This document shows, one piece after another, positions 3,553-56,033 of a DNA stretch of 64,000 nt. The notes below the pieces were generated by a model. That model did no database searches and was not told the origin of the DNA. It saw only the letters and a program-made list of their open reading frames with translations. The translations under genes were made by a program, and so were the position numbers. Source of the DNA: Aspergillus flavus (lineage: Eukaryota; Ascomycota; Eurotiomycetes; Eurotiales; Aspergillaceae); assembly GCF_009017415.1 (NCBI RefSeq), contig NC_092406.1, forward strand, positions 5,828,001-5,892,000. Direction: 5' to 3'. Position 1 is the stretch's first letter. Each line of letters starts with the position of its first letter.

Positions 3553-4659
3553 ACTTGCGGTTCTACGATGAACACCCGGAAGATGGCAGGTGAGGTACTT
3601 GATGCTGTTACAAGGATGGAATCTCTTGACAGTGACACTCAGATGTAGTAAGCGAATAACCTCGATGTCCTCAGGAGGGGGGGGACAGATACAGGCCGGT
3701 CATATGGGTTGGGTATCGTGTGTTGACCCGGGGGTGTGAGAAGTGGAAATATAAATCTTCACTATCGGTGGATCATCTTAATGCTTACCAAGAGTAGGTA
3801 GGGCTATCTAGGAGTGAATGTGGTTTCTAAATATATATGAGGCCGTTGGCTTACACATAAACAAAGAAAGGTAGTATACTTTGGTGAATTCTCCAATAAT
3901 GGACATTTTGGGGTGACAGGCTATTTTTATCTTCGATTGTTAAGAATAAACCATTAAGCGTATACTTAGAAGAAAAAAAAAAAAAAAAAAGGAAGAGAGA
4001 GAGAGAGAGAGAGAAGGTGTGTAGATATGGATAACCGCAGAACCGTTACCTCCTCCGTACTTACTCAAAGGAGATTTGGGAGACTCTCGATATACTCCTA
4101 TAATTACAACAATTTAGAGTGAGCTTTTGAGAGTCCCAGGCATCTGGACAATGTCTTAAAGGTTTCAGATTTTAGCCTGTAGGAATACGTAGCATTCTCA
4201 TTGCTGTAGACGTTAGTTCGCAAGGCTTAGTTAGGTAGGTGGTCGAACTAGAATTCTTACAGGCATATATTAGGCCAAAACCGTCTATAGCCTAACTAAA
4301 GGTGCGAGTATAGGATACGTTCGAATATATCATTGATATTCAGAATCTAATTGCTGGTAGAGAGTCTTTGGTATATCACGTCGCAGTTGCATGAAGCATT
4401 GTTATATATAACAGATGGTCATACGTCTGTGATAATAAAATAGAATATTATTGGACCACCAGTCGCTCTCCTAGAACTCCGTGTATAGAAAGTTTCAAGT
4501 TGGCCCTCCTAATTGAATTAGGATTTAATATAGTTCCAGGTGTCTTGTTGATGAGCCCTTTTCTGCCTGCTGTACTGTCCCTTTTCTTAAGGGGAAGTGG
4601 TTGGGTTGTATAATAGTAGCCGTATTTGAATGCAAAATCCAACCAGAAGGCAATAATAA
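3553..4659. other. AT-rich intergenic region with simple repeats
   Basis: No gene is visible. It holds a G8 run near 3674, an A18 run (3973-3990) followed by (GA)10 (3995-4014), and AT-rich sequence with many stops in all frames. The nearest feature downstream is the first tRNA-Leu gene. Confidence 0.5.
3973..4014. repeat. A18 run and (GA)10 microsatellite
   Basis: Eighteen A residues are followed after a short spacer by ten GA units. This is simple-sequence DNA with no other structure seen. Confidence 0.9.
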
Positions 4660-4824
4660 GGCAAGATGACCGAGTGGTTAAGGTAAATTCGCACTGCCCT
4701 CACACAATCGATCGACCTCATCTAACAGGAAAATAGGTGTATGACTCAAGCTATAGCTTGTCCTAGACAACTAGGGTTACTTCATATGTCGCAAGACGCG
4801 TGGGTTCGAATCCCACTCTTGTCA
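4660..4824 (+). tRNA. tRNA-Leu(CAA), copy 1, with two introns
   Basis: The acceptor stem is GGCAAGA (4660-4666) paired with TCTTGTC (4817-4823), with one G-U, and A4824 is the discriminator. The T-arm is GTGGG-TTCGAAT-CCCAC (4800-4816). The anticodon stem TATGA/TCATA is interrupted by a canonical 30-nt intron (4751-4780) after G37. The anticodon is CAA (4747-4749). The variable arm GTC-GCAA-GAC is type II, as expected for leucine. A second insert (4683-4736) splits the 3' strand of the D-stem and looks like a spliceosomal intron. Removing both leaves 81 nt with an ACC/GGT D-stem. The A-box-like element (TGACCGAGTGG, 4667-4677) lies before the D-arm insert and the B box (GGTTCGAATCC, 4803-4813) is intact. 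A T6 tract follows. It could instead be a pseudogene, but every stem of the mature form is intact. Confidence 0.85.
4683..4736 (+). other. D-arm insert of tRNA-Leu copy 1 (spliceosomal-intron-like, 54 nt)
   Basis: The insert starts GTAAAT, has the branch-like motif ATCTAAC 12 nt before the end, and ends AATAG. It sits between the second and third conserved bases of TTAAG|GTG, so removal restores TTAAGGTGTATGACTCAAG. The length and signals match mRNA introns of neighbouring genes (50-70 nt). Because GT starts both the insert and the following exon, the break can slide by 2 nt, but only this placement gives GT...AG ends. Confidence 0.75.
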
Positions 4825-4827
4825 ATC

Positions 4828-4833
4828 TTTTTT
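4828..4833 (+). terminator. Pol III terminator of tRNA copy 1
   Basis: Six T residues start three bases after the discriminator base, as expected for an RNA polymerase III stop. Confidence 0.8.
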
Positions 4834-4886
4834 ACCCGTCCTAGTAGATGTTCCTGTGTTTATCAGGAGTGTCCTTTTTCTTTTTC

Positions 4887-4919
<33 letters not shown>

Positions 4920-5517
4920 CCCTGTGTTTTTCTTGTTACATACACCTCTTGTCACAGATTTGATAGCGATCATGCAAGGTGACTGTACCTGATGCCCTGT
5001 CCCATGTGCATGAACAACTCGGTGGCCGATCGGCGACGTCGGAGACTATACCCGTTGCCTTTCTAATAACGCACAGTGGCCCCTGCTGGGAATATTGTAT
5101 ACAAAGAATCCTAGGGGTCTTTCAGCTATAAATTAGCACTGGAAATCGTAGTAGAGTAAATCAAGAATCAGTCTTCTGTCTCTAGTATCTACTGCCTAGC
5201 GCTTTGCCTACATATCCTTACCTAGTTGACAGGTCCTCTACCCTGATTAGTAGATTGGCAAGTAATCACCGCTCAATTCAACACCTAATCAATTGCGTTC
5301 TTCCACCAGCTCTTTCTGTTTTTCCTATATCTTTAGAATAAGCAGTCGAATAACCAGATCAACTTAGTTTATCGTTTTTTGTATTGAATTATCTCATCAA
5401 ATTGAGTATCCTACTAGTCCTTTGAGGGTTCTATTTCAACGACTTTTTCAGTTGGGCGTCATCACTAGATGAGGTATGGAATAGATAGCCTAACTCGGAT
5501 AACTTAGTCATCAACAC
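4834..5517. other. Spacer between tRNA copies 1 and 2
   Basis: A pyrimidine-rich tract (about 4873-4921, repeated TTTTC units) is followed by unique AT-rich sequence. I found no fourth tRNA copy or T-arm remnant and no gene. Confidence 0.5.
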
Positions 5518-5686
5518 GGCAAGATGACCGAGTGGTTAAGGTGTAAGTACCGACGTCGTCTATATTGTAACTCTAGCAGTTATCTAACCTTATCTTATTA
5601 GGTATGACTCAAGCTACAGCTTGCCCTAGAGAATAGGGTGCCTTCATATGTCGCAAGACGCGTGGGTTCGAATCCCACTCTTGTCA
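5518..5686 (+). tRNA. tRNA-Leu(CAA), copy 2, with two introns
   Basis: The spliced sequence is identical to copy 1: the same acceptor stem (5518-5524 with 5679-5685), D-stem, anticodon stem, type II variable arm and T-arm. The anticodon CAA is at 5610-5612. The canonical intron is 5614-5642 (29 nt) and contains GCTTG, able to pair with the CAAG of the anticodon region, the usual pairing in nuclear pre-tRNA introns. The extra D-arm insert is 5543-5601 (59 nt). Removing both gives 81 nt. A T6 tract follows at 5693-5698. Sequence just outside the gene (CATCAACA before, TTTTTTGATACCT after) matches copy 3, so copies 2 and 3 come from a tandem duplication of about 245 bp. Confidence 0.87.
5543..5601 (+). 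other. D-arm insert of tRNA-Leu copy 2 (spliceosomal-intron-like, 59 nt)
   Basis: It starts GTAAGT (the consensus donor), has TATCTAAC 16 nt before the end, then a pyrimidine-rich stretch and TTATTAG. It lies between T25 of the D-stem and G26. Removal gives TTAAGGTGTATGACTCAAG, as in the other two copies. Its internal sequence differs from the inserts of copies 1 and 3. Confidence 0.8.
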
Positions 5687-5692
5687 TTATTC

Positions 5693-5698
5693 TTTTTT
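5693..5698 (+). terminator. Pol III terminator of tRNA copy 2
   Basis: T6 tract shortly after the tRNA 3' end. Confidence 0.8.
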
Positions 5699-5762
5699 GA
5701 TACCTATTGCTAAATCCTCTTTCAGATATATAACATAATATAGTTTTCTTTAACATCAACAT

Positions 5763-5929
5763 GGCAAGATGACCGAGTGGTTAAGGTGTAAGTACTTTGT
5801 CGTCACACAAACTCAATTGGTCAACCATTAACAGTATCCTCAGGTATGACTCAAGCTATCGCTTGCCCTTGTAAATAGGGTCGTCTTCATATGTCGCAAG
5901 ACGCGTGGGTTCGAATCCCACTCTTGTCA
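5763..5929 (+). tRNA. tRNA-Leu(CAA), copy 3, with two introns
   Basis: The spliced 81-nt sequence is identical to copies 1 and 2. The acceptor stem pairs 5763-5769 with 5922-5928, and A5929 is the discriminator. The anticodon CAA is 5852-5854. The canonical intron is 5856-5885 (30 nt), again with a GCTTG that can pair with the anticodon. The extra D-arm insert is 5788-5843 (56 nt). A T7 tract (5935-5941) follows. It is a tandem duplicate of copy 2, starting 245 bp downstream, yet both introns have diverged from copy 2 while the exons have not. Confidence 0.87.
5788..5843 (+). other. D-arm insert of tRNA-Leu copy 3 (spliceosomal-intron-like, 56 nt)
   Basis: It starts GTAAGT, has CCATTAAC 14 nt before the end, and ends TCCTCAG, a textbook fungal intron layout. 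It lies at the same place as in copy 2, after the D-stem GGT. Beyond the first eight bases (GTAAGTAC) it shares little with the copy 2 insert. Confidence 0.8.
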
Positions 5930-5934
5930 CTGTC

Positions 5935-5941
5935 TTTTTTT
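5935..5941 (+). terminator. Pol III terminator of tRNA copy 3
   Basis: T7 tract a few bases after the tRNA 3' end. Confidence 0.8.
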
Positions 5942-48311: not shown

Positions 48312-50013
48312 TTAGAATTCATAATTGACTGGGGATCCGGTGGATCTGTTGACTAGTTTGGTGCCGATGGGTGCCTGCATCGTTTTGGAATCTTTTTCCT
48401 TGAACTGATTGCGATGAGCCCGAGGGCTAGATCCAGAGGAGAACGAGGCCCCAGAATGGGTCGATGGAGAGGCGCCCCGAGTTGGAGGCTCTGAGGACGC
48501 GGCGCCCAGATGAGAAGGGTCAGGGATGGGGCTCGCCAGCAGAGAGATGGGGGTCTCCTTGGACATGACCGAAACCGCACTGGGGGACGCAGTTTCATGA
48601 CTATGATAGGTACCGAAGGAGTCAATTTCGCCCTTTTCCATGCTTATATCGTGCATAGCCATTTGGGACCGGGGCTGGTAGAGACGGCGCGACTTTTGGC
48701 TTTTCTTAGAGCGTGGCTGGGTCGGGGCACCTTCAAAGGAAGTTGACAGGTAGTCGGCACTCGTGGCGATAGGAGCTGGCATAAGAGAGTGAAGATTGCG
48801 AACAAACTCTTCGTGCTGAACCCTATCAACGTTCTCGATGGCGGCATGACCGGTAGGACTAGGGTAAGGCAGACCACTCATACCTCCTCCCATATGATCC
48901 AGGGTTGGATATTCTGGGAGGGAATCAAAAGACAGGAGATCCATCCTTCTGGGCACTGAGTTAACCGCACCGGAGATATGCTTGTGTGTATGCTTAGGGT
49001 TGGTTGAGATCTTGGGCGAGCTCACAGCCTGATAAGCATGTCGAGATGGTCCGGTAGCCCCTGTAGCATGTTGTTGAGAAGAAAGATAATGAGTACCCTT
49101 CTGCTTAGAAGCCTTTTCGATATCCGAGGAATCGATCGCGCCATTGATCTCCAGGCGGGAAGGATACTGGATCGACTTCATAGCGCCACGCTCCACAGTA
49201 TCATCCTTCCAGTGTTGACCATGACTAGCGTGAGAACGTGGGTGACCATGTCCATTGGGCAGGAGGCTGGGAATGCCGTATTTTTCGCGGTACCAACGTG
49301 GAATATCCCGAAGGCCAAGCTTTTCTAAGGTGGGGAGGTCATTGGGCATCTCGTGCTTATAGAGACAACCTGAAGGATATATTAGCTGATTTTATGCCTT
49401 TGTAAACCGCGCTACTTCCTATGTGCCCTTTACCTTGCTGCTGATAATCGCATTCGCCATGGCGGATCCAGTACGAACAAAATTCTTTCTTTGAGTTGTG
49501 ATGAGCGCCCTAATAGGACATTAGCTGGTGCTGTATTTTTACTGGCGCAAGTCCTCGTCAGGTTACATGTTGGGTAGCACTTACCTGCCTCGAACTTCCG
49601 TTACCTGTGCCACCACTGCTGCTAGGAACCAACCAGCTAGTGGTCGAGGCGTTGGACATGAACCAGTTCTGGGAAATACCTTGCTGAAGGAGGGCATTCA
49701 CGGCCAGGCGCTGGTTTGCCGGAACATTTTCATCAGAGACGAGTCTCATGAGAGAGGCCTGTAGGTCAAAGTCACGGGAACGAGGACCGGAAGACGCGCG
49801 GGTCGACGCTGACACCAGGCCATCGATGACGTAGGTTTGCGCTCTTGGACTCACGGTGCCTAAGCTAGTCATGCCCTGGGTTTCGTTGGCGGACAGTGTA
49901 CGAGGGACTCCTCGAATCGATATATGGGAGGGAAGCTCATCAACAGCAACCAGGGGGGTGATCGTGCCATTTGGACGGGCACAGAAGAACTGGGGGCGAA
50001 GTGGAGATGACAT
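48312..50013 (-). CDS. CCCH zinc-finger protein (fungal, RNA-binding type)
   Basis: Exons 50013-49585, 49509-49434 and 49369-48312 join in frame (introns 75 and 64 nt) to encode 520 residues. The short middle exon and the start of exon 3 together encode one CX8CX5CX3H finger, FCSYWIRHGECDYQQQGCLYKH, split by the intron inside the finger. Next to it is a conserved block (MPNDLPTLEKLGLRDIPRWY, then REKYGIPSLLP) that marks this Pezizomycotina family. The N-terminal 140 residues contain FFCARPNGTITPLVAVDELP, and the C-terminal 300 residues are Ser/Pro/His-rich and disordered. Single CCCH fingers usually bind RNA; the targets are unknown. The upstream gap of 1.6 kb may hold a long leader. Confidence 0.85.
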
Positions 50014-54500: not shown

Positions 54501-56033
54501 GGCCGGGCTCACAACGCTCCAAACCCAGCTGCCAGGCATCCAGGTAGTATGATTATAAGACATAGTCTTCCATTTTATTAGGTACTCTTTGTCAACCTCC
54601 TCCATGATATTTGCGCTGTACCCAGCAACGTATGTCTTAAGGTCTGTTGGCCGCCAGGCAACTATTGCACCGATCTCTCCAGGGGCCGATGAACAGTCTC
54701 CGCAACGAGTTGTTGTTGTATGATCTGTAGTGACATGATCAAAATGAAACGCTCTATGACATTCAGTACAGCGAAAGAGTAAGTTGGCTGTATTGTTCAA
54801 GCAGGCCATATCCACATGGGTGATAGGATCTTTACCACCATTCTCCTGTCGAAGCTGCTGCTCCTGCTTTGGCGTCAAGCGCTCCCGAAGTGGCTTAGAC
54901 ATATTCCCTTTCTTAGAACACGCAGTACAGCGGCCTTGGTGTGGGCAGACCTGGTCTTTCGTATGGGCAACACCTAGGCAGCGACGACACTGAAGAACAA
55001 ATAAGTCATCCGAGACCTTAGTTACAAGGTGTTCGCGTGTAGCTCGAGGACCCAGACAAGCTTGATGATAAGCGGTTGTACATCCCTGACAGAAGACAAG
55101 AGGGCCTTTCGCATAGTCATCTCCACTGCGGTAGCAAACTGCGCACATTTCATTGTGAAGACTTCGGAACGGGTCATCAGATGGGATCTTGCGGAATGAT
55201 TCCTTCGCCCCGAAGAACTTCTGTGTCTTGGTGGCGTCTTCAAACTCAGAAATGTCCTCTTCATACCGCTCCCTGAGACTTTTCCGAAGCGTCTTTCGCT
55301 GCCGGGTTGAAAACCGAGAGCCTGTAGGTCTTGGGGAATAGCCGCTTTCCATATCTGAGCCTCCTGAGTGTATCTTGGCTTGTTTGCGTCTCCTTAAACG
55401 TCTCTTCCGGGTAGTTGCCGTAGACGATATAATAACATCATCACTCGAAGGAGATCCAGAGCGAGATTCCTCGTCCTCACTGCTCATACGGCGAAAGAAA
55501 TCCGTGAACTGAGTATTCCTCGCTCGAGTGGAGCGTCGCCTTGCCCCTGACTCAGACGAAGTATATCCCTCTTCATTGGATGAGGAAGCCATGCTGGATG
55601 GGAACTGTGAGCTTCCGTAGACTTGTTCTGTATTTTGGAAACGTGTGAGGGCTTCGGGTCCGTTGCTTAGGCTCTCAAGTCGGGAGGATGACATCTATAT
55701 GGAAGCAGATATCAGTAAGATAGAGGTCAAGTAAAGGTTACGTGAGAGAAACATAGTACTTACCGTTTCAGTTTCTCCACTGCGCAATTTCACTAAATAG
55801 GATGGCTCCTTCGCAGTCTCTATTGCTTCACTTATGACACAACGGACATCAAAATGTCCGGGGAGGAAGTCATATTCCTCACTATTAGAAATCGTCGGAG
55901 TTTCTACCGCCAGCTGTGATTTGGTCGGTTCTGGTGAGCCTTCAGGTATATGGGCATGAGACTCGCGCTGAAATTGTGACAGGAGGTCTGCGACAAGATC
56001 CTCGTTCAATTGAGATGCAATTTCTTCATCCAT
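51597..56033 (-). CDS. mit1: Mit1/CHD3-type SNF2 chromatin remodeler with PHD-like fingers
   Basis: Two exons, 56033-55764 and 55694-51597, join in phase 0 across a 69-nt intron to encode 1455 residues, close to fission yeast Mit1. Exon 1 encodes an acidic N-terminus with a chromo-like YLVKLRSGETET. A PHD-type zinc region follows at about residue 273 (CAVCYRSGDD, FCQGCTTAYHQACLG, CPHQGRCTAC, FRCTECHRAFH). A degenerate chromodomain (EYLIKWKTMSYNHTTWMPG) comes next. The SNF2 ATPase spans about 640-1090, with [23 protein letters not shown] in place of [14 protein letters not shown] and ALSRAHRIGQ. The C-terminus has a cysteine module (CFACNQNHPVGSC, CGLCGLAHFGISRTCPH). Mit1 is the ATPase of the SHREC complex in heterochromatic silencing in fission yeast. 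It is divergent from mrm1. Confidence 0.85.

Follow-up and report, generated by a model that had tools for sequence, protein, structure and literature searches.

Results

Three tRNA-Leu(CAA) Genes with Two Inserted Pieces Each

The stretch of DNA analysed here, called the window, comprises 64,000 nucleotides (nt) of Aspergillus flavus contig NC_092406.1 (positions 5,828,001 to 5,892,000) and carries three transfer RNA (tRNA) genes for leucine with the anticodon CAA. A 345-residue protein encoded in the window is matched along its entire length, at 99%, by one labelled Aspergillus oryzae var. brunneus, and at 95% and 90% by those of A. sergii and A. caelatus, which places the DNA in the oryzae group of Aspergillus. 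These tRNA-Leu(CAA) genes, numbered 1, 2, and 3, occupy positions 4660–4824, 5518–5686, and 5763–5929 of the plus strand, and each consists of three exons separated by an insert in the D-arm (54, 59, and 56 nt, respectively) and by a canonical intron after position 37 (30, 29, and 30 nt). A preliminary description of this DNA had parsed the three genes in the same way, and all of the parts could be located in the sequence. Exons, boxes, and T runs were read directly from the sequence, the D-arm inserts were delimited by a deletion scan and by their signals, and the canonical introns were taken from ARAGORN and the sequence. The numbering of tRNA positions was assigned by hand on the deletion products.

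Gene 1 begins with exon 1 (4660–4682), which contains the A box (4667–4677), followed by the candidate messenger RNA (mRNA)-type intron of 54 nt between positions 23 and 24 of the D-arm (23|24; 4683–4736; GTAAAT..CTAAC..TAG), by exon 2 (4737–4750), whose 3′ end is formed by the anticodon CAA and G37, by the 30-nt canonical tRNA intron at 37/38 (4751–4780), and by exon 3 (4781–4824) with the B box (4803–4813); a T6 run at 4828–4833 forms a terminator of the RNA polymerase III type. In gene 2, exon 1 (5518–5542, A box 5525–5535) is followed at 25|26 by the 59-nt candidate mRNA-type intron (5543–5601; GTAAGT..CTAAC..TAG), and exon 2 (5602–5613), the 29-nt canonical intron (5614–5642), exon 3 (5643–5686, B box 5665–5675), and a T6 terminator (5693–5698) follow. 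Gene 3 has the same arrangement, with exon 1 at 5763–5787 (A box 5770–5780), the 56-nt candidate mRNA-type intron at 25|26 (5788–5843; GTAAGT..TTAAC..CAG), exon 2 at 5844–5855, the 30-nt canonical intron at 5856–5885, exon 3 at 5886–5929 (B box 5908–5918), and a T7 terminator at 5935–5941. When the inserts are placed by the GT–AG rule, that of gene 1 thus lies 2 nt upstream of the site shared by genes 2 and 3.

Joining the exons without the inserts yields an identical cloverleaf of 81 nt for each gene (81/81 nt in all three pairs), with the predicted joined D-arm TTAAGGTGTATGACTCAAG. The A box TGACCGAGTGG and the B box GGTTCGAATCC are intact, with a spacing of 125, 129, and 127 nt in genes 1, 2, and 3. 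The T6 or T7 run starts 3–6 nt 3′ of each gene, and the longest T run inside the inserts is 2, 2, and 3 nt.

Rfam at gathering score and ARAGORN in its bacterial setting reported no tRNA in the window, as is expected for tRNAs with a broken D-arm; this result is not evidence against the genes. Gene 1 is flanked by two simple-sequence tracts, one A/AG-rich (3974–4015) and one T/TC-rich (4878–4919), which are 76% complementary over 42 nt.

Inserts in Other tRNA Families and the tRNA Census

The genome searched was the assembly of the window itself (37.7 megabases, 8 contigs). The 5′ half of tRNA-Leu(CAA), with at most 3 mismatches, was found in 9 places, namely the three window genes and six others, of which five are class II tRNA genes and one is a degenerate piece. 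Two of the five are tRNA-Ser(UGA) genes (SerUGA-a and SerUGA-b) on the minus strand of contig C3, near 3,508,267 and 3,508,748; both carry a 55-nt insert GTATGT...ACTAAT...TAG or CAG in the anticodon loop, at 33|34, alongside a canonical intron of 17 or 15 nt. The third, LeuUAG-2, is a tRNA-Leu(UAG) gene on the plus strand of contig C6 (3,350,942) with a 63-nt insert GTTCGT...ACTAAC...AAG at 32|33 and, by our own parsing, an 11-nt canonical intron. The remaining nuclear tRNA-Leu(UAG) gene found (C3:4,264,699) is free of an insert, its one intron being canonical and 11 nt long, and the fifth class II gene is a plain tRNA-Leu(UAA).

The six inserted genes are therefore spread over three contigs, with three loci in the window and three on two other contigs. 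Their inserts sit at 23|24, 25|26, 33|34, or 32|33 and never at 37/38, where the second introns are located. A run of at least 5 T starts 0–6 nt past the tRNA end in 6/6 inserted genes. Judging by sequence, the genes examined appear to be intact in everything by which a tRNA gene is recognised, that is, cloverleaf, A and B boxes, T run, and anticodon.

The preliminary description had left room for an intron-normal tRNA-Leu(CAA) gene that could supply the cell. Searches of the genome with the 5′ and 3′ halves (at most 3 mismatches), which a strongly diverged copy might escape, found no insert-free tRNA-Leu(CAA) or tRNA-Ser(UGA); the 3′ halves matched only 3 and 2 places, respectively. The spliced Leu(CAA) sequence compared with the genome at expectation values up to 10 gave no locus beyond the known ones.

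The census comprises 60 distinct tRNA genes (59 and gene 1 of the window, LeuCAA-1, which ARAGORN did not call), and mRNA-type inserts were present in 6/60. It is partial, covering 30 of the 36 places from a class II A-box search and part of 235 B-box places, and it is biased toward class II genes because their A box was the search target. All six inserted genes belong to class II (Leu, Ser), and each also has a canonical intron by our own parsing. A canonical intron only was seen in genes for Leu(UAG), Ser(CGA), Gln(UUG), Cys(GCA), and Ile(UAU) among those read. The 54 insert-free genes include an adjacent AT-rich pair, Leu(tag) and Phe(gaa), in the region of C2:1627355, which looks like mitochondrial DNA included in the nuclear assembly. 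Three class II tRNA-like sequences, at C4:3731551, C6:3484207, and C4:388203, are degenerate or truncated, and on the minus strand of C4 near 4540159 there is a T-arm-like sequence GTGGGTTCGAATCCCGC for which a 5′ half was not recognised and which may be a chance match or a tRNA gene with more extensive interruptions.

The genome has two matches to the U6 small nuclear RNA (snRNA), which extend over the full length (106 and 100 bases) and by this measure are uninterrupted; not every RNA polymerase III gene in this genome is interrupted. In viral contigs, the Leu 3′ half was found in 0 places and the Ser 3′ half in 3, one of which was called tRNA-Pro by ARAGORN while the other two had the same 3′ half; a scan of prokaryote genomes gave 23 short matches.

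Insert Boundaries from a Blind Deletion Scan

For each of the six genes, the canonical intron was removed as parsed, every stretch of 20–99 nt upstream of it was then deleted in turn, and the products were given a cloverleaf score that is blind to GT and AG. The insert-free product reached the full score of 27 in 6/6 genes. Between 1,935 and 2,502 distinct products were scored for each gene (1,935, 2,207, and 2,051 for Leu(CAA) genes 1, 2, and 3), and none exceeded the GT..AG product, so that the best-scoring cloverleaf coincides with the GT..AG cut in 6/6 genes. The number of products sharing the top score was 27, 1, and 1 for Leu(CAA) genes 1–3 and 3, 3, and 2 for the other three genes. In SerUGA-a, SerUGA-b, and LeuUAG-2, the single possible placement of the deletion is GT..AG (3/3), and each Leu(CAA) gene allows 4–5 equivalent placements, one of them GT..AG.

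With the inserts in place, ARAGORN called nothing, SeC, and Tyr at Leu(CAA) genes 1–3, and across the six genes its calls were absent or wrong (SeC, Tyr, Asn, Asp, Pro). After removal of the inserts, the right isotype and anticodon were called in 6/6, that is, Leu(CAA) three times, Ser(UGA) twice, and Leu(UAG). The canonical intron was recovered in 3/3 Leu(CAA) genes, and its length agreed with our own parsing in 4/6 genes overall.

Splice Signals Compared with Chance and with mRNA Introns

The signal set was defined as GT followed by a match to at least 3 of the 4 positions of RWGT, a YTRAY motif with its A 8–25 nt from the 3′ end, and a terminal HAG. As a background, 200,000 draws per gene were made of DNA of the same length from the window outside the tRNA region and from 20 other loci, placed between the same exons. 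The full set arose by chance in 11–35 of 200,000 draws per gene. For Leu(CAA) genes 1, 2, and 3, the figures were 21, 35, and 25; the GTAAGT or GTAAAT starts, CTAAC or TTAAC motifs, and TAG or CAG ends of the preliminary description were confirmed. Because the members of each family are paralogs, multiplying the background figures over all six genes would be unjustified, and the fair count is three families.

The set is complete in 5/6 inserts; LeuUAG-2, with GTTCGT, misses the 5′ rule and keeps GT, the branch motif, and AG. The YTRAY motif occurs in 6/6, with its A at 11, 14, and 12 nt from the 3′ end in Leu(CAA) genes 1–3 and at 12, 11, and 11 nt in the others; this motif alone is found in approximately 11–12% of background draws.

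The likeness of the inserts to neighbouring mRNA introns, which the preliminary description extended to both size and signals, is the weaker point as far as size is concerned. Of three mRNA introns of the window, two were resolved with the help of homologous proteins, one of 75 nt at 49510–49584 (GTAAGT..GCTAAT..TAG) and the other, delimited by eye, of about 69 nt near 55695–55763 (GTAAGT..ACTGAT..TAG). Both have the GTAAGT..TAG ends, and both, in a sample of only two, are longer than the inserts (54–63 nt).

The predicted folds of the unspliced precursors had z scores of −1.49, −1.57, and −2.46 for genes 1, 2, and 3, with weak structures that by eye are unlike one another.

Divergence between Gene Copies

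The exons are 81/81 identical in all four within-family pairs. In the same four pairs, the inserts show 54, 61, 60, and 63% identity against shuffled means of 47, 49, 50, and 51%; in 3/4 pairs, the value is slightly above the best of 100 shuffles, which leaves some kinship. The canonical introns are 72–80% identical between copies, and the flanks are at or near the shuffled level. Such constancy of the exons amid drift of the remaining sequence speaks for tRNAs that work, whether it results from selection directly or from gene conversion on which selection acts. A piece of 54–63 nt in the D-arm or anticodon loop is incompatible with a working tRNA, and the inserts should therefore be removed.

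Discussion

Taken together, the coincidence of structure-defined boundaries with GT..AG, the branch motifs, and the constancy of the exons make it very likely that the inserts represent spliceosomal introns of the U2 (mRNA) type within RNA polymerase III tRNA genes, which would be spliced out before the tRNA endonuclease acts. The same account extends to both tRNA-Ser(UGA) genes and to one tRNA-Leu(UAG) gene. The division of labour suggested by the preliminary description, with the spliceosome for the insert and the tRNA endonuclease for the canonical intron, is the best account of these sequences, and it gains support from the inserts in two further tRNA families elsewhere in the genome.

According to this model, and as suggested by the intact A and B boxes and the T runs, RNA polymerase III would transcribe each gene as far as its T run. 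The spliceosome, recognising the signals described above, would then remove the insert in the nucleus and restore the D-arm in the Leu(CAA) transcripts, after which the tRNA splicing endonuclease and ligase would take out the ordinary intron at 37/38. This order is proposed on two grounds: contact of Sen54, a subunit of the endonuclease, with the D-arm has been reported (PMC4090602), and in tRNAs of the red alga Cyanidioschyzon merolae the additional introns are presumed to be removed ahead of the anticodon intron (PMC9602550). The tRNAs in question thus probably pass through two different splicing machines, to judge from their genes.

Each family has its insert at a site of its own, and among the Leu(CAA) genes the site also shifts by 2 nt. 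This pattern suggests insertion on more than one occasion; within Leu(CAA), the shift may reflect either sliding or a further insertion. On this account, mRNA-type introns would have reached tRNA genes on at least three occasions or would have spread from one such gene to another, and they could have arrived by reverse splicing or by insertion at the DNA level.

Several observations weigh against a spliceosomal origin or reduce its generality. The UUG and UCA codons can in principle be read by other tRNAs through wobble, namely by tRNA-Leu(UAA) and by inosine-modified tRNA-Ser(AGA), so that the inserted genes need not be essential. The six genes are not six independent cases, being paralogs within families. 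LeuCAA-1 is the weakest of them, as 27 best deletions are tied, 5 of the 27 products having 81 nt and two of the 27 a GT..AG placement. ARAGORN assigned a canonical intron of 3 nt to SerUGA-b, for which we parsed 15 nt, and none to LeuUAG-2, for which we parsed 11 nt. The LeuUAG-2 insert also contains a TTTT run that could weakly stop RNA polymerase III, which counts against full expression of this gene. Finally, the strict fungal consensus (GTRWGT, RCTRAY, YAG, and a branch-to-acceptor distance of 6–36 nt), as given in PMC5832005, is followed only in part when the inserts are compared with it by eye: GTRWGT is present in 4/6 (GTAAAT and GTTCGT fail), RCTRAY in 3/6 (both Ser genes and LeuUAG-2), and YAG in 5/6 (LeuUAG-2 has AAG). 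The branch-to-acceptor distance falls within the range in 6/6 inserts.

We consider it improbable that the inserts are ectopic tRNA introns of the kind found in archaea, and perhaps in C. merolae, which the tRNA splicing endonuclease would cut out, with GT..AG being coincidental or secondary. Such an explanation can draw on the multi-intron tRNA genes with D-arm introns reported for C. merolae (PMC9602550) and on a relaxed bulge–helix–bulge test in which the inserts and the canonical introns scored alike (5–7 of 10), a likeness that leaves this test without power. The scores of the inserts were not above those of shuffled sequences, 20–89% of 2,000 shuffles being as good. For endonuclease introns, one would not expect GT..AG and a branch motif to recur in three families just where the structure places the ends, and the D-arm that Sen54 is reported to contact (PMC4090602) is broken by the insert in the Leu(CAA) genes.

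Another explanation would be that the six genes are dead, the insert staying in and the codons being read by other isoacceptors. Genes for the tRNAs needed for this are present, since by the general wobble rules tRNA-Leu(UAA) could read UUG, and tRNA-Ser(AGA) together with tRNA-Ser(CGA) could cover UCA and UCG. Dead genes, however, would not be expected to show 100% exon identity between copies alongside diverged inserts and flanks, or to retain intact stems, boxes, and T runs and splice signals within diverged inserts. In addition, the sequence searches described above found no further Leu(CAA) or Ser(UGA) gene, and UUG is used 22 times, as is UCA, among the 1,712 codons of two open reading frames of the window; we therefore regard the loss of these genes as quite unlikely. 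It is least plausible of all that the inserts are self-splicing or mobile DNA elements or an artefact of assembly or chance, and we give this very little credence. At 54–63 nt, they are too short for group I or group II introns, as is generally known, and the three window inserts gave zero Rfam matches at gathering score, a weak argument given that Rfam missed the tRNAs there too. An artefact would have had to produce the same pattern at three loci in the window and at three on two other contigs, and the contribution of chance is small.

A spliceosomal origin of the inserts has parallels in other stable RNAs. The U6 snRNA genes of Schizosaccharomyces pombe and other fungi are reported to contain an mRNA-type intron (PMC10484740, PMC5832005), which is likewise a spliceosomal intron whose host is a small structured RNA made by RNA polymerase III. 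The host U6 RNA is, however, itself part of the spliceosome, whereas here the hosts are tRNAs of three families, which have a second, endonuclease-type intron as well. The introns of the fungal U3 small nucleolar RNA, as described in PMC5832005, resemble the inserts in their signals, in their small structured host, in the occurrence of copies with and without an intron in one genome, and in small shifts of position, but they average 92 nt, compared with 54–63 nt here. The same 2017 paper names U3 and U6 as the only small structured RNAs in which an intron was, up to then, known to be a frequent interruption, and tRNA is not among them. The ribosomal DNA introns of lichen fungi (PMC8527467, citing Bhattacharya 2000) are also ectopic spliceosomal introns in a stable RNA of ascomycetes that is not made by RNA polymerase II, and according to this source yeast removed them from an RNA polymerase I transcript; they differ in that the host is ribosomal RNA made by RNA polymerase I and not a tRNA made by RNA polymerase III.

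With regard to tRNA genes, those of C. merolae come closest in layout, having a D-arm intron together with an intron at 37/38, but in the passages of PMC9602550 considered here they are not described as spliceosomal. Eukaryotic tRNA genes are stated to be limited to one intron (PMC8450103), in contrast to the two of different type here. The canonical eukaryotic introns at 37/38 (PMC8450103, PMC4090602) are represented by one in each of the six genes by our own parsing. The preliminary description knew of no such case in tRNA genes. Since D-arm introns are known in C. merolae, the novelty lies in the spliceosomal type and not in the location; as to the type, no published spliceosomal intron in a tRNA gene was found among the matches listed in the open-licence literature without preprints, taken by titles and abstract starts. 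The kind of element, ectopic spliceosomal introns in stable RNAs, is thus known, and what would be new is the tRNA host, for which the matches listed gave no report.

Significance

The introns of tRNAs and of mRNAs are taught as separate worlds with separate enzymes, and eukaryotic tRNA gene finders assume one intron at 37/38. The tRNA gene sets of fungi such as this one can accordingly be wrong, as illustrated by the SeC, Tyr, Asn, Asp, and Pro calls at Leu and Ser genes, and genomes from which Leu(CAA) or Ser(UGA) genes seem to be "missing" can be tested directly. If our reading is true, the spliceosome acts on another kind of RNA polymerase III transcript, and these genes would offer a natural test bed for the splicing of very short RNAs and would bear on how spliceosomal introns colonise new hosts. 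For the fungus itself, it is likely that spliceosomal introns entered tRNA genes repeatedly and that the decoding of UUG and UCA would hence be coupled to splicing capacity.

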